Source: Halobaculum marinum (GTDB taxonomy: Archaea; Halobacteriota; Halobacteria; Halobacteriales; Haloferacaceae). From it: DNA of 64,000 bases. A program made the translations under genes and the position numbers. This document shows positions 25,815 through 34,963 of this stretch, in pieces; positions within the stretch are counted from its first letter, which is position 1; every line of letters begins with the position of its first letter. Below the pieces are notes generated by a model. The model made no database searches. It was not told where the DNA came from and saw only the letters and a list, made by a program, of their open reading frames with translations. The stretch spans positions 124,001 through 188,000 of the forward strand of contig NZ_CP119989.1 of NCBI RefSeq assembly GCF_029338555.1, read 5' to 3'.

Positions 25815-25944
25815 AGTGACGGGCGTTCGGGGCCACAGTTAGCGTTTTTGTGTGGCCATGTGCGACGGGGTCTCGCCGATCCTCGACGGTGGTTTCTCTC
25901 CCCCACCCACGAAATTATTTCCTGCAGGAGGATACAGTCGACCT

Positions 25945-26721
25945 GTGAGCGAGATCACATCCATCGCGTTCGTCGGCGCCGTCGGCGGCGCCGGAACGAC
26001 GAGGACCGCCGTCGAGTGTGCTGCCGCGCTCGCCCGCGGCGGGCGCGACGTGGCCGTGCTCGACGCCGCGTACGCGACGCAGGGGCTGAGCGAACACGTC
26101 GACGGCCGGATCGACCCGGATGTCACGTCGCTGTGTCTCGACCCCGACCGCCCGCTGACCGACGGCCTGTACGACCTCGACCTCGACGCGGCGACCGAGG
26201 GTCGGGTGGCGCTCGCGCCGGCGCGCGCGCCGTTCGAGCGCGTCGCTCGTGCGAAGGCAGTCGACCCGGCGCGGGAACTGGAGCATCGCGTCGCCGAGGC
26301 GGGCGAGCAGTTCGACCACGTGATCGTCGACACGCCGCCGATCGCCGCCAACCAGGCCGTCGCCGCCGTCCACGCCGTCGACCGAGTGGCGCTCGTCCGG
26401 CCCGACACGCCGCACGGCGCCGACGGGGTGCGACGTCAACTCGACGCGCTCCGGGACGTGGAGGCACCCGACGGGAATCCCGTGGTCGTCGCCGTCGGCG
26501 AGCGTGAGGGTGCGGGCGAGGCCCCGGACGTGACCGTGCCGCGCGGCCCGCCGTCGGTCGCCGCCGCACCGGCGTGTCTCGGTCGCGACGAGGTCGCCGC
26601 GGGCACGGTCGCCGCCGCCGAGTCGCTGTTCGGCGTCGACCTCGGCGTCGAGTTCGAGACGACGGGCGTCGTCGACCGGATCAGCGCCGGCGTCGAGCGC
26701 GTCCGGGGCGACGACGACTGA
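25945..26721 (+). CDS. ParA/MinD-like protein with a degenerate P-loop
   Basis: This 258-residue protein follows the ParA/MinD fold: an N-terminal VGAVGGAGTTRTAVECAAAL, then RDVAVLDAAYATQG (switch I-like), VIVDTPPIAANQ (Walker B/switch II-like) and VALVRPDTP. Both P-loop lysines of the deviant Walker A (KGGxGKT) are missing, replaced to read GGAGTTRT, so ordinary ATP binding and hydrolysis are doubtful. GTG 25945 is chosen because it begins right before the first strand; upstream ATGs lie in an AT-rich promoter-like region. A gene on the other strand converges 36 bases beyond. Confidence 0.8.
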   Translation: MSEITSIAFVGAVGGAGTTRTAVECAAALARGGRDVAVLDAAYATQGLSEHVDGRIDPDVTSLCLDPDRPLTDGLYDLDLDAATEGRVALAPARAPFERVARAKAVDPARELEHRVAEAGEQFDHVIVDTPPIAANQAVAAVHAVDRVALVRPDTPHGADGVRRQLDALRDVEAPDGNPVVVAVGEREGAGEAPDVTVPRGPPSVAAAPACLGRDEVAAGTVAAAESLFGVDLGVEFETTGVVDRISAGVERVRGDDD

Positions 26722-27441: not shown

Positions 27442-28302
27442 ATGGCGACGAGCACGACAGCGTGCCCGGAGTGCGACGGGAGAGTGCGGACGAACGACGA
27501 CGAGTCGGTGTGCAGCGACTGCGGCCTCGTGGTCGGCGAAGACCGCATCGACCGCGGGCCGGAGTGGCGCAGTTTCGCGGACGACGACACCGACCCACGC
27601 CGAACGGGCGCGCCGCTCACCCGGTCGCGCCACGACCGCGGCCTCTCGACGGAGATCGGTCACACCCGCGTGAAGGGGCGCAAGCGCCGCCAGTGGGCGC
27701 GGATGCGGCGACAGCACACCAGAGCGCGGATCTCCTCGAAGCGCGACCGGAACAAGGTGTACGGCTTCACCGAGATCCGACGGCTGGTGTCGGCGACCGG
27801 CCTCCCAGACTCGCTGCGGGATCAGGCGTGCACCCTGTTCGAGTCGGCACAGGACGCCGACCTGCTCCGCGGGCGATCGATCGAGGGGTTCGCCGCCGCC
27901 GCCGTGTACGTCGCCTGTCGCGTCGGGGGCGTCTCCCGGACCCGCGCGGAACTGGTCGCTGACGCGAAGGCCGACGGCGACGAACTCGACGCCGCCTTCG
28001 ACGCGATGAACCGCGAGTTGGGTCTTCCGGTCGGGCCGATCGACCCCGTCGAGTACCTCCCCCGGTTCGCCACCGAACTCGGCCTCGACACCGACGTGGA
28101 GCGCGCCGCCCGCGAGTACCTCGACGAGGCCGCCGACCTCGGCCTCACGAACGGGCGCAACCCGAGCGGGGTCGCCGCGGCCTGCCTGTACGCCGCCGCG
28201 CGCGACGCCGGCGTGGAGTGTACGCAGGCGGCTGCCGCCGACGTCGCCGACGTGACGCCCGTGACGCTGCGCTCCTCGTACGTCGAACTGCGCGAGGACT
28301 GA
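27442..28302 (+). CDS. tfb: Transcription initiation factor IIB (TFB)
   Basis: This 286-residue TFB has a zinc ribbon (Cys8-x2-Cys11, Cys24-x2-Cys27), a linker with the B-reader/finger-like GPEWRSFADDD and TGAPLTRSRHDRGLSTEIG, then two cyclin-like repeats (about 105-190 and 200-285) that bind TBP-DNA. It recruits RNA polymerase to TATA promoters. Haloarchaea carry several TFB paralogues with distinct regulons; this one is on the short side because the region between ribbon and core is compact. It converges on the MinD gene. Confidence 0.93.
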   Translation: MATSTTACPECDGRVRTNDDESVCSDCGLVVGEDRIDRGPEWRSFADDDTDPRRTGAPLTRSRHDRGLSTEIGHTRVKGRKRRQWARMRRQHTRARISSKRDRNKVYGFTEIRRLVSATGLPDSLRDQACTLFESAQDADLLRGRSIEGFAAAAVYVACRVGGVSRTRAELVADAKADGDELDAAFDAMNRELGLPVGPIDPVEYLPRFATELGLDTDVERAAREYLDEAADLGLTNGRNPSGVAAACLYAAARDAGVECTQAAAADVADVTPVTLRSSYVELRED

Positions 28303-28328: not shown

Positions 28329-28994
28329 CTACGACGGGCGGTCGCACCGCCGAACGGCGTCGGCGAGTGTCTCGACCGCCCGTGCGGCGGCCGTGTCGGG
28401 GGCGACCTGCGTCACCGGTTCCTCGTGGGCGATCGAACTGCCGAGCCGCGGGGCCGCGGGTACCGCCGTCGCCGGCGCCCCGAGCGCGCGCCCGACCGCT
28501 CGCGTCGGCGGGTCCTCGACAGCGCGGTTGAGCGCGACCGCCGCGAGCCCGCAGTCGAGTTCACGGGCCAACTCGCGGGCGGCCATCGCGTCGGCGAGCG
28601 CCCACCGCGTCGGCGACGCGACGAGCAGGCAGGCGTCCGCGACCGCCAGCGGCGCGCCGGCGTCGAGACGGAGGCCGGCGGGCGAGTCGACGACGACGTG
28701 GTCGTACCCGGGGACTGTGACGGCGTCGCGGAGGCGGCGGATGTCCGCGAGGCGAGCGCCCGCGAGCGTCCGCCCGCACGGGAGCACGTCGACCGGGCCA
28801 GGTCGGAGCGCCTCCCGTGGAGCCGCACGACCCGCGAGCACGTCGTGGAGGTCGGGTCCGCGCTCGCGTTCTCCCGGCAGATCCGCCATCGAGAGGTCGG
28901 CGTCGACGACGAGCGCGTCGAGCGCGGCGCCGACGTTGTACGCGAGCGTCGACTTGCCGACGCCGCCCTTCCCGCCGGCGACGGCGAAGATCAC
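28329..28994 (-). CDS. MinD/ParA-family ATPase
   Basis: This 221-residue ATPase has an intact deviant Walker A (GKGGVGKST, residues 8-16), switch I VDADLSMADLPG, and Walker B/switch II DHVVVDSPAGLR. It lacks an obvious C-terminal amphipathic membrane-targeting helix (it ends ETLADAVRRCDRPS). It is the last gene of a tightly overlapped cluster (ATGA with the preceding gene) of haloarchaea-only proteins, resembling the locus of one of the several Haloferax MinD paralogues. It probably positions or regulates some cellular structure, but the cargo is unknown. Confidence 0.9.
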   Translation of the reverse strand: MIFAVAGGKGGVGKSTLAYNVGAALDALVVDADLSMADLPGERERGPDLHDVLAGRAAPREALRPGPVDVLPCGRTLAGARLADIRRLRDAVTVPGYDHVVVDSPAGLRLDAGAPLAVADACLLVASPTRWALADAMAARELARELDCGLAAVALNRAVEDPPTRAVGRALGAPATAVPAAPRLGSSIAHEEPVTQVAPDTAAARAVETLADAVRRCDRPS

Positions 28995-29776
28995 GCCAAC
29001 CGCTCCAGTGCCGCGACCGGCACCGACACCCCCTCTGCGCGCTGGGCCAGCGCCGCCGCGCGGTCGGCCACCCGCGACAGCGTCTCGGCATCCGCCGCCA
29101 CCAACGCGTCCAAGCCGCTCGGGTCGACTCCGTCCGCGAGGACGCCCGTTGCGTCCGCCACGGACCCCTCGGCGAGCGTCTCGGCGCGTCCGATCCGTCG
29201 GTCTGCGGCGTCGAGTGCCCGACGGACACCCGGCGGCACGGCCGCTTCATCGTCGTAATCGGGCCGTTCGGTGCGCTCGGTGCGCGCCTCGCACTCGGCG
29301 GCGTCCGTCTCGCGAGCGCCCGCCTCCGTCGCCTCGGTCGCTGCTGGCGCAGTCGAGGACGGCGCTGAGTCTGCGGCCCGCGACCGCGCTACGGGGACGA
29401 CGGCGTCGGCGGGCGGTCGCGCGTCCGGGAGGTCGGCGCGGGCGGCGTCCAGCGGGTCGGCGGCGTCGTCGTCCGGGTCGGAGACGGCGACCAGTTCCGC
29501 TGGGTCGTCGGTCGCAGCCACGGTCGAGTCGGTCCCATCCGCGAGGTCGACCGCGTAGCCGAGTGCGCGCGCGCCGTCGGCGTCGACCACGCCGGTGTAC
29601 CCGTCGTCGCTCCACCCCGGTTCCGGTCGACCGTGTCGCCGCGGCGGGAGCAGTCGCCCGTCGAGGCGGTTCGCGACCTGGACGCGTCGCGCCACCGGTT
29701 CGGTGTTGCGGAGGCGGAGTCGAACGAGCGCGACGCCCGCCGTGGCGGTCACCGTCGCGTCGAGCGTGACTGGCAT
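28991..29776 (-). CDS. Haloarchaeal protein of unknown function in the MinD operon
   Basis: This encodes 261 residues. The N-terminal 60 (MPVTLDATVTATAGVALVRL, then LRLRNTEPVARRVQVANRL) form a beta-sandwich-like domain. A long low-complexity acidic linker follows, and a helical C-terminal part (from about 190) has RRALDAADRRIGRAETLAEG and a Leu/Ala-rich coiled-coil-like end. It overlaps minD by four bases, so it is translated with it and is a candidate partner or adaptor. Met 29776 is preferred over one five codons upstream. No known family is claimed. Confidence 0.72.
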   Translation of the reverse strand: MPVTLDATVTATAGVALVRLRLRNTEPVARRVQVANRLDGRLLPPRRHGRPEPGWSDDGYTGVVDADGARALGYAVDLADGTDSTVAATDDPAELVAVSDPDDDAADPLDAARADLPDARPPADAVVPVARSRAADSAPSSTAPAATEATEAGARETDAAECEARTERTERPDYDDEAAVPPGVRRALDAADRRIGRAETLAEGSVADATGVLADGVDPSGLDALVAADAETLSRVADRAAALAQRAEGVSVPVAALERLA

Positions 29777-29841
29777 GCGGCGAGTGGTCACCTAATCGGC
29801 GATAAACGTCCGCCGAGTGTCGACGCCCAGACGGTCGGCGC

Positions 29842-30699
29842 TCAGGGGGCCGACACCAGCACCACCGGGGCCCGGAGTCGGTCCCGGACCGTCGCGGCGG
29901 CCTCGTCGTCGAACAGCGGAGCCGAGACGACAACAGGGTCGTCGCGACGGGCGAGTCGGACGGCAGCGGCGTGGCCGGCGACGGGGTCGCCGTCGAACGC
30001 GGTCGGGTCGTCGCCCACGTGGTCGGTCGCTGGTGCGTCCGCCGCGACCGCGTCGAAGGCGGTCCAGAACTCGTCCCACAGCTCGCGAGCGAGAGCGGCA
30101 CGCGCCTCCCGGCGGCGGTTCGCCAGCGCGTCGCGGCGGGACCGCTCGCGCTCGCTCGCGTCCCGGGCGCGCCTCGCGCGCTCGGTCGCCCGCGAGAGCG
30201 CCTGCCGGGCCGCGACTCGCTCCGTCTCCGCCTCCGTTAGCGCCCGCGTCGCCGCCTCGAACGCCGACTCCACCTCCGCCAACGACTCCGCCTCTCCGGC
30301 CGACGTGCCCGGTTCCGCGTCACCGCCGCGTCGCTCCCGGAGTCGACCGCGGAGCGTGGCCACCCGCTCGCGGAGGCGGGCCACGTCGCTGCCGGCTTCG
30401 GCAGCACGTCGCCGGGCCGTCGCGAGGTCGACCGCCGGATCTGACGAGTCAGGTGGTTCGGTGGTCGCGAGGGCGGCTCGGAGTCGTTCGATCTCGGCGT
30501 CGTTCGGGTGGTCGTGCCCCCGTTCGCGTGCGGCAGCCGCGAGCGCCACCGACAGCGCGGGCGGGGTCGCAGAGACGGTCGCCAGCGGGTCGTCCGCGGC
30601 GAGGTCGAGCGTCTCGCGTACCGCCGTCGCGTCGGCGTCGACCCCGCGGAGGTCGACGGCGTCGCCGTGGTGGACCTCCCCGCCGATCCGGATCCTCAC
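29842..30699 (-). CDS. Coiled-coil haloarchaeal protein of unknown function in the MinD operon
   Basis: This 285-residue protein starts at a GTG (30699) that overlaps the stop of the upstream gene as GTGA. It has a short N-terminal strand domain (VRIRIGGEVHHGDAVDL), then a long Arg/Glu/Ala coiled coil at about 70-200 (LRERVATLRGRLRERRGG, ALTEAETERVAARQALSRA), and a C-terminal alpha/beta domain with DDPVVVSAPLFDDEAAA and a final VRDRLRAPVVLVSAP. The coiled coil could dimerise or bridge the MinD ATPase to a target; this is inference from context. Confidence 0.72.
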   Translation of the reverse strand: MRIRIGGEVHHGDAVDLRGVDADATAVRETLDLAADDPLATVSATPPALSVALAAAARERGHDHPNDAEIERLRAALATTEPPDSSDPAVDLATARRRAAEAGSDVARLRERVATLRGRLRERRGGDAEPGTSAGEAESLAEVESAFEAATRALTEAETERVAARQALSRATERARRARDASERERSRRDALANRRREARAALARELWDEFWTAFDAVAADAPATDHVGDDPTAFDGDPVAGHAAAVRLARRDDPVVVSAPLFDDEAAATVRDRLRAPVVLVSAP

Positions 30700-31034
30700 A
30701 GCTCCGCGTCGCGCATGGCGTCCGGGTCTGGGTGGTCCGCGCCGACCGCGAACTTGGCGTACGGCGTCGAGCGCGTCTCCCGGTCTTCGTAGGCGACCGC
30801 GGCCTCTCGAACCGCTGGACGGACGGCGGCGAACTCGTTGAACGGCTCGGTCCGCTCGACGCGCACGTCGGCGCCGTGTTTCGCCCGCAGGCGGCACGCG
30901 AGGAACGCGCCCAACTCCGTCTCCTCGAACAGCGCGGCCCGCCCGAACCGTCGGACGACGGTGTCGTCGTGGCTGCGACAGACGTTGCGGAGCGTCGTCC
31001 GCGCCCCGCGCGAGTACGTCGCGACGAACAACAT
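30696..31034 (-). CDS. Small conserved haloarchaeal protein, first gene of the MinD operon
   Basis: This 112-residue soluble protein begins MLFVATYSRGARTTLRNVCR and has a DDTVVRRFGRAALFEETE segment and a basic/acidic alternating middle. There is one Cys and no metal cluster. Its stop overlaps the GTG of the coiled-coil gene. A good TATA box lies about 26 bases upstream, so this is probably the promoter-proximal gene of the four-gene operon. Function unknown. Confidence 0.75.
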   Translation of the reverse strand: MLFVATYSRGARTTLRNVCRSHDDTVVRRFGRAALFEETELGAFLACRLRAKHGADVRVERTEPFNEFAAVRPAVREAAVAYEDRETRSTPYAKFAVGADHPDPDAMRDAEL

Positions 31035-31054: not shown

Positions 31055-31064
31055 GAATATAATT
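31055..31064 (-). promoter_or_regulatory. TATA box of the MinD operon
   Basis: Minus-strand AATTATATTC is centred about 26 bases before the ATG at 31034, indicating a leaderless operon promoter. It is the most AT-rich spot in this kilobase. Confidence 0.55.
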
Positions 31065-31094: not shown

Positions 31095-31124
31095 GGTCCG
31101 ATCCGGTCCGATCCGGTCCGATCA
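31095..31124. repeat. 10-bp tandem repeat, three copies
   Basis: GGTCCGATCC occurs twice in a row and is followed by a third copy with one change (GGTCCGATCA). It lies in the 116-base gap between the MinD-operon promoter and the 3' end of the small gene downstream of mcm. Possibly a regulator site array or simple slippage product. Confidence 0.8.
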
Positions 31125-31150
31125 GGGCTTCCGGGGTGCGGTCGGCGTCG

Positions 31151-31432
31151 CTACAGCGGTTCGACGCGCACCTCGTCGGGCGCGGCCGCCTCATCCTCGG
31201 CGAGCGCGACCGCTCGTTCGCGTGCCGCCGCTGAGTCGCCCGCGACGACGACGCGGCCTTCGCCGGGGCCGTCGACGACCTGGTACGCGCGGCGGTCGTC
31301 CGCCTCGAACTCGGTGGCGTACGTCCGGAGGACGGTCGCGACCCGTCGCTCGGTGTCGGCGAGGTCGGCGTCGCCGTCCTCGAACGCGCGGATGGCGTCC
31401 TCGACGTTCCGGAGTGCGGAGATGCGGTCCAT
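31151..31432 (-). CDS. Small haloarchaeal protein downstream of mcm
   Basis: This encodes 93 residues: an N-terminal helical half (MDRISALRNVEDAIRAFEDG, ADTERRVATVLRTYATEFE) and a C-terminal alpha/beta half (GEGRVVVAGDSAAARERAVALAE). It starts 3 bases after the mcm stop codon, so the two are co-transcribed. The function is unknown, but tight linkage to mcm suggests a replication-related role; this is inference. Confidence 0.72.
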   Translation of the reverse strand: MDRISALRNVEDAIRAFEDGDADLADTERRVATVLRTYATEFEADDRRAYQVVDGPGEGRVVVAGDSAAARERAVALAEDEAAAPDEVRVEPL

Positions 31433-31435
31433 CGG

Positions 31436-34400
31436 TTACGTCGTGCGGACGTAGCCGGACTGGGGCTCGTAGATCTCGCCGCGCGTCCGGAGTTTCTCCA
31501 GTTCCTTCTCGGCCTTGGCGGGGTCCATGTTCGCCTCGTCGGCGCGTTCGAGGATGGTGTCGACCGGCGCGCCGGGTTCGTCCTCGTACTCCTGGGCGAT
31601 GGTCTGGATGAGCTCTTTGATCCCCTTGATCCGGTCGCGCTGGGTCTTGCTGCGACCAGTCTCGACGACGTCGGCGTCGAACTCCCCCGTCTCGGGGTCG
31701 ACGCCGATGTCCTGCAGGCACGAGCGAACGATGTCGATGACGCGGGTGGCGTCCTCCTCTTCGACGGTGTCCGAGAGGCGGACGCGCGCGCTCGCCTCCG
31801 AGAGGCGGACGAGCGCCTCCAGTTTCCGGGCGGTGACCGGGACGGGCGCGTCCTCGTCGGCCCCCTTCGAGCGGAGGTCGACGTAGAACTCGCGGATGGC
31901 CGCCCGTGCCTCGTCGGTCATCGTCGGGAAGCAGTTGCGCTTCGCGTAGGCGATGTACTTGCGGAGGAGTTCGGCGTCGATGACGGGCGCGACCTCCTGG
32001 GTGACGTTCTCCACCTCCTCTTGGGTGAAGTTGGAGGTGGCCATGCGCTCTCGCTGGGTGTTCAACTCGCCCGCGTAGTTCGTGGTCAGGATGTGGTCGG
32101 CCAGTTTCGCGTCGTGCTCCGGGTCGGGGCTGTCGGTGACGGTGAAGATGAGGTCGAACCGCGAGATGAGCGCGGGTTCGAGGTCGATCTGCTCGCCGAT
32201 CGGTTCGTACTGGTCGAAGCGACCGTACTTCGGGTTCGCCGCGCCGAGGAGCGAACACCGCGACTTGAGGGTCGCGTTGATGCCGGCCTTCGAGACGCTG
32301 ATCTTCTGCTGCTCCAGCGCCTCGTGCATCGCCGAGCGGTCCTCCGAGCGCATCTTGTCGAGCTCGTCGACCGCCGCGATCCCTTTGTCCGCGAGGACGA
32401 GCGCGCCGGCCTCCAGCGTCCACTGCTGGCCGTCGCCGAAGTCGTCGCGGACGGCCGCCGCGGTGAGCCCTGCGCTGGAGGAACCCTTCCCGGAGGTGTA
32501 GACGGAGCGCGGGGCGATGTTCTGGATGTACGACAGCATCTGCGAGTTGTGCGAGATGAGTCCATCCGAGACGTAGCTGTGCGTCCCTTCGACTTCGAGG
32601 TCGTACACCCACTCCTCAGCGGGTTCGACGTGTTCGATGGACTCGATCCGCTCCCAGCCCACGTTGCCGTCGACGAGCGATCGGAGTTCGGCGACCCGGT
32701 CGGCGACTGACAGACCACCGTCGGCCACCGCACCTGTATCGACTGGTTCGCGTTCTGCGAGCGTTTCCTCGAACGCGGAGACGACCGCCGAAAGACTGTC
32801 TCTACTCGGATTTCGGTCGCCGCGGTCGTAGTGTTGGTACGTCGGCCGCGGCAGGCCACACTCAGCCTGCGTGAGTCCGAGCGACTCACGGAGGTCGCGG
32901 AGTTCCTCGCCCGCGGGAATTACATCAGTATTCGTATTCCCGAGAACGTCAGCGAACTCGGCACACGCATGGGATTTCCGCTCCGTGACGAAGCCGACCC
33001 GTTCGACGTACCGAGCGAAGTCGTCGCCGCTAATGCGGAGGCGATAGCTCCCGTTGTGTCGCGGGTGAAGTTGCGACTGGATCCCCGACGACAGCAGGAG
33101 CGTTCGCACGTCGTCGAGGAGGTCCTGACTCATCGACGCGACCGTTATCTCGCGCTCGTTGGCTGAAACGTGGCCTTCGCCCTCGACGAAAGCACGGAGG
33201 AACGCGCGGCCCGTCGTGTCGCTCGCGGCCATGATCGGTTCGGGGACACGCTGGTTTGCCGATCCTTCGATCATCGAGGCGGAGAGGCTCGTGAGGAAAC
33301 TCACCAACTCGCCGGAGCCACAGACGACCTCGCGTGCGGTCTTTCCGTCGTGTGGAGACCGCTCGAAGTGGTTCACCCCGAGACGGTCGAGCGCGTCGAC
33401 CACATCGTCCAAGACCTCACGGTCGTTGTTGGTGACCGAGACGTAGCCTGTCGAGTCATCACGCTGTTCGACGTAGCCCTCGGCGACGACGTACCCGACG
33501 AGTCGCGCGAGCCACGGCGTCCACTCGTCGGGCACGTCGAGTCGAATCGCGTTGTTCGACTTCGAACGCCGGAACGCGACATCGAGCGTGTCGTCGCCCC
33601 GAGTCGGGAGCGAACGCGGTGCTGCGACGAACCCACCCTCGGAGAGTTCGTCGGCTCGAATCGCCGTCGTCGAACCGTTTTCGCGGACGAACAGCGGATG
33701 CGACGGCGTGACCTCGAGTTCTCGACCGCTGTTCGTTCGGATCCGGAGCATCTGCTCGGGTGCCTCCCGCTTCCAGACCTTCGTCGCCTGTCGCGGCTCG
33801 AGTTCCCCGTCCGGCCCCAGCGACGGGACTGCGAAGTCGGCCTCGTCCCAGACGCCGTCGTCTATCGGCTTAGGGTCGTCGAGAGTCGAGTCGACGAGTT
33901 CGCGGATGGGCACGTCACGCCCGTCCGCGAGGGTGACCCGCGTGTCGCCGGCGACGCATTTCCCGGTCCCGGGGTCACCGATGAGGAGCATGTGGAGGTC
34001 GCCGCGGATGCGCGACCCGTCGGGGAGGTGCTTCGTCACGCCCGAGAACAACTGGAGGATCATCGAGAGCTTCTCCTGGTCGTAGCCGTAGATGGACGGC
34101 GCGACGGAGGCGACCATCTCCTCGTAGATGTTCTCGTGAGTGGACAGCTCGAGGATCTCCTGTTTGTCCTCGTCGGTGATGTCCATGTCCTCGAACTCCT
34201 CGTCCTCGATGACCACGGAGACGCCCTCCATGTACGGGTCGAACACGGTCGTCTTCTCCTGGCCGGAGGTGACCTGCTCCATCTCCAGTCGCCCGACGAC
34301 GGTGACGTGGTCCCCCGGCGTCACCCGACCGCAGACGTCGTCTTCGAGGTTCACGTCGATGCTCTGTGGCGTCTCGCCGCCGCGCAGTCCCTCGGGCGAC

Positions 34401-34963
34401 TCCTGCACCCGAAGCTGCTGGGAGTCGATGAACTTCGACTCGTTGTTGTTGACACGGAACGGCCCCTGTCGCTCGCAGCCCTGGCACTCGTGGGGCTCTT
34501 GGAACCCCGAGTCGTTCTGCGGGATGTACGTCATCGTCCCGCAGCGCTGGCACTCGAAGGCGGCTTCGACGATCTTCGGGCGCACGTCCGTCGCCTTGCG
34601 GACGATCCCCTGCACCGCCACCATCGACCCGATGTGGTCGTCGCTGACGCGGATGCCGCGGATGTCGAGCGTGCTCTCGCGCGGGAGGTCGCGCAGGCGG
34701 ACGTGTGCCTGTCCGAGCGAGATGTCGACCGGCAGGTCGTACGTCCGGAGGGCCTCCTCGGCGACCTCCTGCATCTCGCCCGGGCGGTTGAGGTAGCGCT
34801 CGGCGATGTCGGGGTCGTACGTGTAGAGGTCGTTGTAGTCGACGTAGAGAGAGCGCTGTTCCTTCGGATAGTTCTGCGCGAGGCGGGCGATGTCGTCGCT
34901 GTAGTAGGTCCGATAGAAACTGAGGAACTCGTCGACGTCCTGTCCCTCGGCGGCCTGACTCAT
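31436..34963 (-). CDS. mcm: MCM replicative DNA helicase, intein-containing
   Basis: This 1175-residue precursor yields a 704-residue MCM after removal of a 471-residue intein. The N-terminal domain has a zinc site (Cys138, Cys141, Cys160, Cys163) and OB-fold; the AAA+ core has Walker A GDPGTGK (329-335), interrupted by the intein, then S-QMLSYIQN, Walker B VLADKGIAAVDELDKM, sensor 1 region CSLLGAANPKYG and arginine finger SRFDLIF. A winged-helix-like end (from about 1110) contains TILERADEANMDPAKAEKEL. It forms the hexameric 3'-5' replicative helicase. Excision is essential because the insertion separates the ATP-binding Lys from the following Ser. Confidence 0.96.
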   Translation of the reverse strand: MSQAAEGQDVDEFLSFYRTYYSDDIARLAQNYPKEQRSLYVDYNDLYTYDPDIAERYLNRPGEMQEVAEEALRTYDLPVDISLGQAHVRLRDLPRESTLDIRGIRVSDDHIGSMVAVQGIVRKATDVRPKIVEAAFECQRCGTMTYIPQNDSGFQEPHECQGCERQGPFRVNNNESKFIDSQQLRVQESPEGLRGGETPQSIDVNLEDDVCGRVTPGDHVTVVGRLEMEQVTSGQEKTTVFDPYMEGVSVVIEDEEFEDMDITDEDKQEILELSTHENIYEEMVASVAPSIYGYDQEKLSMILQLFSGVTKHLPDGSRIRGDLHMLLIGDPGTGKCVAGDTRVTLADGRDVPIRELVDSTLDDPKPIDDGVWDEADFAVPSLGPDGELEPRQATKVWKREAPEQMLRIRTNSGRELEVTPSHPLFVRENGSTTAIRADELSEGGFVAAPRSLPTRGDDTLDVAFRRSKSNNAIRLDVPDEWTPWLARLVGYVVAEGYVEQRDDSTGYVSVTNNDREVLDDVVDALDRLGVNHFERSPHDGKTAREVVCGSGELVSFLTSLSASMIEGSANQRVPEPIMAASDTTGRAFLRAFVEGEGHVSANEREITVASMSQDLLDDVRTLLLSSGIQSQLHPRHNGSYRLRISGDDFARYVERVGFVTERKSHACAEFADVLGNTNTDVIPAGEELRDLRESLGLTQAECGLPRPTYQHYDRGDRNPSRDSLSAVVSAFEETLAEREPVDTGAVADGGLSVADRVAELRSLVDGNVGWERIESIEHVEPAEEWVYDLEVEGTHSYVSDGLISHNSQMLSYIQNIAPRSVYTSGKGSSSAGLTAAAVRDDFGDGQQWTLEAGALVLADKGIAAVDELDKMRSEDRSAMHEALEQQKISVSKAGINATLKSRCSLLGAANPKYGRFDQYEPIGEQIDLEPALISRFDLIFTVTDSPDPEHDAKLADHILTTNYAGELNTQRERMATSNFTQEEVENVTQEVAPVIDAELLRKYIAYAKRNCFPTMTDEARAAIREFYVDLRSKGADEDAPVPVTARKLEALVRLSEASARVRLSDTVEEEDATRVIDIVRSCLQDIGVDPETGEFDADVVETGRSKTQRDRIKGIKELIQTIAQEYEDEPGAPVDTILERADEANMDPAKAEKELEKLRTRGEIYEPQSGYVRTT
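32546..33958 (-). mobile_element. Intein with LAGLIDADG homing endonuclease inside mcm
   Basis: Residues 336-806 of the precursor are an intein. It begins Cys336 (CVAGDTRVTLADG, block A), has block B ELEVTPSHPLFV, two LAGLIDADG-type helices (LARLVGYVVAEGY and RAFLRAFVEGEGH) and ends YDLEVEGTHSYVSDG... LISHN with the terminal His-Asn before Ser807. All splicing residues are present, so it should be active. Between the endonuclease and the C-terminal block lies an XRE-like helix-turn-helix (LRESLGLTQAECGL, YDRGDRNPSRDSL). Base composition is visibly less GC-rich than the flanking MCM codons, consistent with acquisition. Confidence 0.95.

Follow-up and report, generated by a model that had tools for sequence, protein, structure and literature searches.

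Two gene pairs beside mcm in Halobaculum marinum, with DUF7857 as the candidate partner of the MinD1 ATPase

Background

Haloarchaeal MinD paralogues organise the motility machinery and the CetZ cytoskeleton. A MinD-type ATPase encoded close to mcm in Halobaculum marinum raises the question of which protein it works with, and whether the uncharacterised genes read before it belong to the same unit. An initial annotation of the window analysed here (64,000 nucleotides of contig NZ_CP119989.1, positions 124,001 to 188,000) described one four-gene operon ending in the ATPase, with a coiled-coil protein or its neighbour as candidate partner.

In H. volcanii, mcm is HVO_0220 (PMC3972481) and MinD1 is HVO_0225 (PMC11588486, PMC11621097). 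Exactly four tags lie between them, fitting DUF7854 to DUF7857, and profile scores place DUF7855, DUF7856 and DUF7857 in that genome. It is thus well founded, from tag spacing and family matches, to treat the window ATPase as the orthologue of H. volcanii MinD1, likewise an archaeal MinD at the mcm locus. Work cited in PMC11588486 is summarised there as finding division and growth unaffected after deletion of all four minD genes, and the motility defect of the quadruple deletion equals that of the minD2/minD4 deletion (PMC11621097); a function of MinD1 must therefore be looked for elsewhere. According to PMC11621097, MinD1 is undescribed and no clear MinE-like partners of these ATPases have been identified, and the papers we found describe no individual function or partner for MinD1. 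None in the literature searched names DUF7855-DUF7857 or HVO_0222-0224.

Layout of the locus

The four minus-strand genes were recovered at roughly the positions first reported, with mcm close by, as had been noted, and DUF7854 intervening. The features are:

31436-34963, minus strand: mcm
31151-31432, minus strand: DUF7854, between mcm and DUF7855
31055-31062, minus strand: TTATATTC, the TATA-like box before DUF7855-DUF7856, its A/T block conserved across loci
30696-31034, minus strand: DUF7855, 112 aa, opening the DUF7855-DUF7856 pair (PF25253, 1.6e-57)
29842-30699, minus strand: DUF7856, 285 aa, GTG start, predicted alpha/beta head and coiled-coil hairpin (PF25254, 2.5e-50)
29801-29806, minus strand: TATA-like box TTTATC of the DUF7857-MinD1 pair, 25-30 bp before ATG 29776
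28991-29776, minus strand: DUF7857, 261 aa from ATG 29776, proposed MinD1 partner or adaptor (PF25256, 1.4e-30)
28329-28994, minus strand: MinD1 ATPase, 221 aa, GTG start (minD_arch, 1.2e-33)
27442-28302: TFB gene, convergent, beyond MinD1

Pfam names the families in the order of the locus, DUF7854 to DUF7858, all without assigned function. The window proteins are clear members of DUF7855, DUF7856 and DUF7857 (for the last, 106.8 bits against a gathering score of 27); to these functionless entries the present analysis adds the pairing, the promoters and the domain split. As a separate observation, mcm contains an intein with LAGLIDADG domains within its P-loop region.

Junctions and promoters

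Two GTGA stop/start overlaps are present in the window, joining DUF7855 to DUF7856 (30696-30699) and DUF7857 to MinD1 (28991-28994). The first persists in 47 of 49 loci and the second in 57 of 58, far more than chance would give. The initial annotation had reported ATGA/GTGA overlaps in the run; these two stand, but DUF7856 and DUF7857 do not overlap in the window or in any of the 42 loci measured, where the gap ranges from 16 to 378 bp. ATG 29776 is a better start for DUF7857 than GTG 29791, and with it the gap in the window is about 65 bp and contains a second TATA-like box. Across 42 loci with DUF7856 upstream, an A/T block occupies -30 to -26 relative to the DUF7857 ATG (positions -30 to -27 are 86-100% A/T, the surroundings mostly 20-40%). 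A TATA-like match precedes DUF7857 in 50 of 61 loci, and none of the 61 shows one in the control interval. A block at -29 to -26 is likewise conserved before DUF7855 across 51 loci, while DUF7856 and MinD1 carry no upstream A/T block of this kind in the same cross-locus comparison.

Judged by sequence, the locus thus appears to consist of two bicistronic units, each with an internal overlap and its own leaderless-type TATA box, and read-through from the DUF7855 promoter into DUF7857-MinD1 is possible. Because of the second conserved box and the non-overlapping middle junction, the earlier description of a single TATA box serving a four-gene operon fails. One genome (G036), outside the 42-locus gap count and without MinD1, joins DUF7856 and DUF7857 in one continuous reading frame of 527 residues (L056:7353-8936, minus strand), with the TATA-like box kept.

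Two other elements were seen near these promoters. About three tandem 10-bp copies of a GGTCCGATCC-like unit occupy 31097-31125, in the DUF7854-DUF7855 gap, a short way before the TATA-like box of DUF7855. In many genomes (e.g., loci L089 and L095) a GCGGC(C)A element, possibly a regulatory site, lies between the TATA-like box and the DUF7857 ATG; it is not found at the equivalent place in the window.

Co-occurrence across haloarchaeal genomes

An even set of 116 haloarchaeal genomes was scored for DUF7855, DUF7856, DUF7857 and MinD1. DUF7857 adjoins MinD1 in all 81 genomes that have the ATPase; each of the 82 MinD1 matches of at least 112 bits lies next to DUF7857, and the weaker paralogue matches listed never do. 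The four genes run together in 63 of these 81 genomes, namely 62 with the cluster and one that has the cluster plus a second DUF7857-MinD1 pair. Another 15 carry DUF7857-MinD1 without DUF7855/DUF7856, and three have the two pairs at different loci. DUF7856 occurs without MinD1 in seven genomes, four of them (one genus) with DUF7855-DUF7856-DUF7857 and three with DUF7855-DUF7856 only; two further genomes have DUF7855 alone. DUF7855 is present in 73 of 73 genomes with DUF7856. Phi values, from counts that treat genomes as independent though they are related, are 0.92 for DUF7857/MinD1, 0.96 for DUF7855/DUF7856 and 0.58 for DUF7856/MinD1. Joint loss of DUF7857-MinD1 has likely happened more than once, since the pair is missing in members (e.g., G018 and G100) of genera that otherwise have it.

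Co-occurrence therefore gives good support to the idea that an uncharacterised protein from a neighbouring gene is the partner of the MinD-type ATPase. Constant adjacency, together with persistence of the pair where DUF7855/DUF7856 are absent, makes DUF7857 the best partner candidate. The earlier choice of the coiled-coil protein or its neighbour is thus upheld for the neighbour, and the coiled-coil DUF7856 becomes the weaker candidate, because MinD1 and DUF7856 occur without each other or apart in the genomes listed above. The initial annotation had also named two grounds for abandoning its reading, lack of co-conservation and separate transcription. The synteny search found co-conservation broken between the two modules and preserved within each, and separate transcription is indicated at the level of promoter sequence between DUF7856 and DUF7857.

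A single four-gene operon was rejected on the second promoter together with the modular synteny. The fuller version of that reading, in which the four genes form one machine with DUF7856 as the direct MinD partner, draws on their contiguity in most MinD1 genomes, on the DUF7856-DUF7857 fusion and on possible read-through; we consider it improbable in view of the conserved promoter before DUF7857, the genomes in which MinD1 and DUF7856 are separated or lack one another, and a MinD1-DUF7856 mirror-tree partial correlation near zero.

Mirror-tree partial correlations for MinD1-DUF7857 (0.32-0.57) are not clearly above those of MinD1 with the neighbouring TFB (0.33) and DUF7858 (0.38). This counts against the pairing, as does DUF7857 without MinD1 in the one genus of four genomes; coevolution, being near the neighbour background, was not used as support. 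These near-background values are what would be expected if the genes stay together through inertia of a conserved haloarchaeal mcm locus, with no functional link, and mcm, DUF7854, TFB and DUF7858 are conserved neighbours in the same way. However, at L052-L054 and most of L037-L051 the overlapping DUF7857-MinD1 pair persists at a distance from mcm, and G018 and G100 keep DUF7855-DUF7856 while lacking the pair, which makes mere inertia very unlikely.

The MinD1 ATPase

The last gene had been described as an intact MinD/ParA ATPase, and its deviant Walker A motif, GGKGGVGKST, is indeed intact. Among 28 MinD1 orthologues K9, G10, G11, G13 and T16 are invariant and K14 is kept in >90%, in agreement with KGGxGK[ST]; D31/D33, D103, P105, G107 and N156 are also invariant, so the switch and Walker B aspartates are in place. 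Conserved ParA/MinD residues of this kind are needed for ATP-dependent dimerisation, and conservation in these orthologues indicates that MinD1 retains them. In one genus (G001, G007; L034, L035, L104) K14 is replaced by T (GGVGTST), with DUF7857 retained.

The best matches among solved structures are the archaeal MinD proteins 1hyq, 1g3q and 1ion, yet the score against minD_arch (TIGR01969), 116.3 bits, falls below the curated cut-off of 201.75. MinD1 therefore represents a divergent subgroup, which we term MinD-type. No C-terminal amphipathic membrane-targeting helix is present among 58 orthologues, whose last 12 residues average 0.1 F/W and 2.5 hydrophobics. Given the retained dimerisation residues and the absence of such a tail, MinD1 probably runs through its ATPase cycle in soluble form and would be coupled to DUF7857.

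FleN and FlhG are soluble nucleotide-switch regulators in bacteria, and MinD1-DUF7857 might similarly regulate transcription or assembly rather than position anything. The missing membrane-targeting tail, a weak similarity of MinD1 to FleN/FlhG structures and the frequent proximity of the convergent TFB gene and the HTH-like DUF7858 are consistent with such a role, but the nearest structures are archaeal MinD and not FleN, and the TFB neighbour is absent where the DUF7857-MinD1 pair sits elsewhere. We regard a switch of this type as rather unlikely.

The MinD1 tree resolves two well-supported clades, one of 42 (the mcm-type cluster and three relocated copies) and one of 16, the latter corresponding to DUF7857-MinD1 pairs without local DUF7855/DUF7856. 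One genome (G058) has a copy from each, and no plasmid-borne MinD1 copies were found. A ParA/MinD-type protein lies near the pair in 11 of the 16 loci of the smaller clade. In the two scanned among those 11, beside the pairs, a MinD domain is fused to a KaiC-like DUF7125 domain (L041:6639-7913, plus strand; L038:8771-10057, minus strand). In the genome of the window itself, MinD and DUF7125 are encoded by two genes lying next to each other (L110). Within the window, the ParA/MinD-like product of 25852-26721 (plus strand) has another residue in place of the P-loop lysine (GxxGGAGTTR-type), as do 29 of 29 of the strongest family members, itself included; it looks like a conserved pseudo-ATPase.

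DUF7857, DUF7856 and DUF7855

The predicted DUF7857 structure (mean pLDDT 83.0, the sandwich mostly 94-98) bears out the sandwich and a helical part in the earlier beta-sandwich/coiled-coil description: an Ig-like beta-sandwich (~residues 1-100) leads through a disordered linker into a helical bundle at the C terminus (residues 182-260). V18, P45, W55 and G73 never vary, P44, R46 and G49 hardly do, and the Ig-like domain carries a near-invariant WPPRxxGxPxxGW loop. A profile of the C-terminal bundle detects it in 41 of 46 loci that carry DUF7856 and in none of the 16 that lack it, a correlation that may rest on very few events, perhaps one or two, because the 16 loci form one MinD1 clade. The genus without MinD1 keeps both domains, bundle included.

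Fold comparison of DUF7857, chiefly of the part outside the bundle, gave Ig-like or adaptin-mu-like matches only (Z up to 7.5), a type so widespread that it is no sign of kinship. No DUF7857 scored over the cut-off outside the haloarchaea in the phylum sample, and a weak match in G170 (E 2.7e-4, one internal stop) was disregarded. A related-locus search with the single window protein returned one named relative, Halobaculum litoreum.

For DUF7856, the model (mean pLDDT 94.5, pTM 0.81) agrees with the coiled-coil protein first described, predicting a small alpha/beta head that bears a coiled-coil hairpin (helices 88-125 and 134-206). The first Foldseek matches were SMC and Rad50 heads (E 4e-3, TM ~0.25). 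A degenerate SMC/Rad50 head was rejected at that E value, the re-aligned rows spanning the coiled coil only; the conserved DUF7856 columns hold no P-loop, where an SMC/Rad50-type ATPase would have a Walker A in its N-terminal lobe and an ABC signature. The modelled likeness is suggestive of a shared topology only.

Proposed mechanism and comparison with known systems

We propose two modules, in which a soluble MinD1 is bound by a DUF7857 adaptor that tethers DUF7856/DUF7855 where its bundle is present, and we give this reading an even chance of being correct. MinD1 would dimerise with ATP, and the Ig-like domain of DUF7857 would bind it, the WPPRxxGxPxxGW loop being the best candidate contact. 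DUF7857 would then either set the nucleotide cycle of MinD1 or couple MinD1 to cargo, and its bundle may tether DUF7856 and hence DUF7855, the candidate cargo or effector. The distribution of the bundle fits such an adaptor, with the sandwich serving MinD1 and the bundle DUF7856/DUF7855, and the in-frame DUF7856-DUF7857 fusion also speaks for it. It should be noted that gene pairing, overlaps, the conservation of promoter positions, co-occurrence, the correlation of the bundle with DUF7856 and the predicted folds are what the analysis shows, and that binding, ATPase control and a positioned cargo are what we infer from them.

Bacterial MinD-MinE and ParA-ParB likewise place a deviant Walker A ATPase beside a companion gene, although bacterial MinD has the membrane-targeting tail that MinD1 lacks. 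Neither MinE nor ParB was found among the DUF7857 fold matches, which alone do not decide kinship. A closer parallel is MinD2-HVO_0596, also a MinD ATPase and a synteny-conserved companion of unassigned function in one transcription unit (PMC11588486); there the companion lies downstream, whereas DUF7857 lies upstream of MinD1 with a 4-bp overlap. HVO_0596, encoded with MinD2 in conserved synteny and with a contact predicted by AlphaFold 3, has no deletion phenotype (PMC11588486), a precedent that calls for caution in reading DUF7857 synteny as function.

Significance

The families were already named; their modular structure and the assignment of DUF7857 as partner appear to be new relative to the literature searched. 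It is a long shot that MinD1, DUF7857 and DUF7856/DUF7855 make up a haloarchaea-specific modular positioning or segregation system, parts of which can be split off or lost; were that so, the mcm neighbour would hint at the replisome or chromosome as a possible target. For experiments, the two modules are best handled separately, since a deletion or tag applied to "the operon" as a whole would confound them. A near-obligate companion with a conserved overlap and its own promoter yields a short, testable partner list, DUF7857 first and DUF7856/DUF7855 second, and with DUF7857 archaeal cell biologists gain a concrete partner candidate for MinD1.
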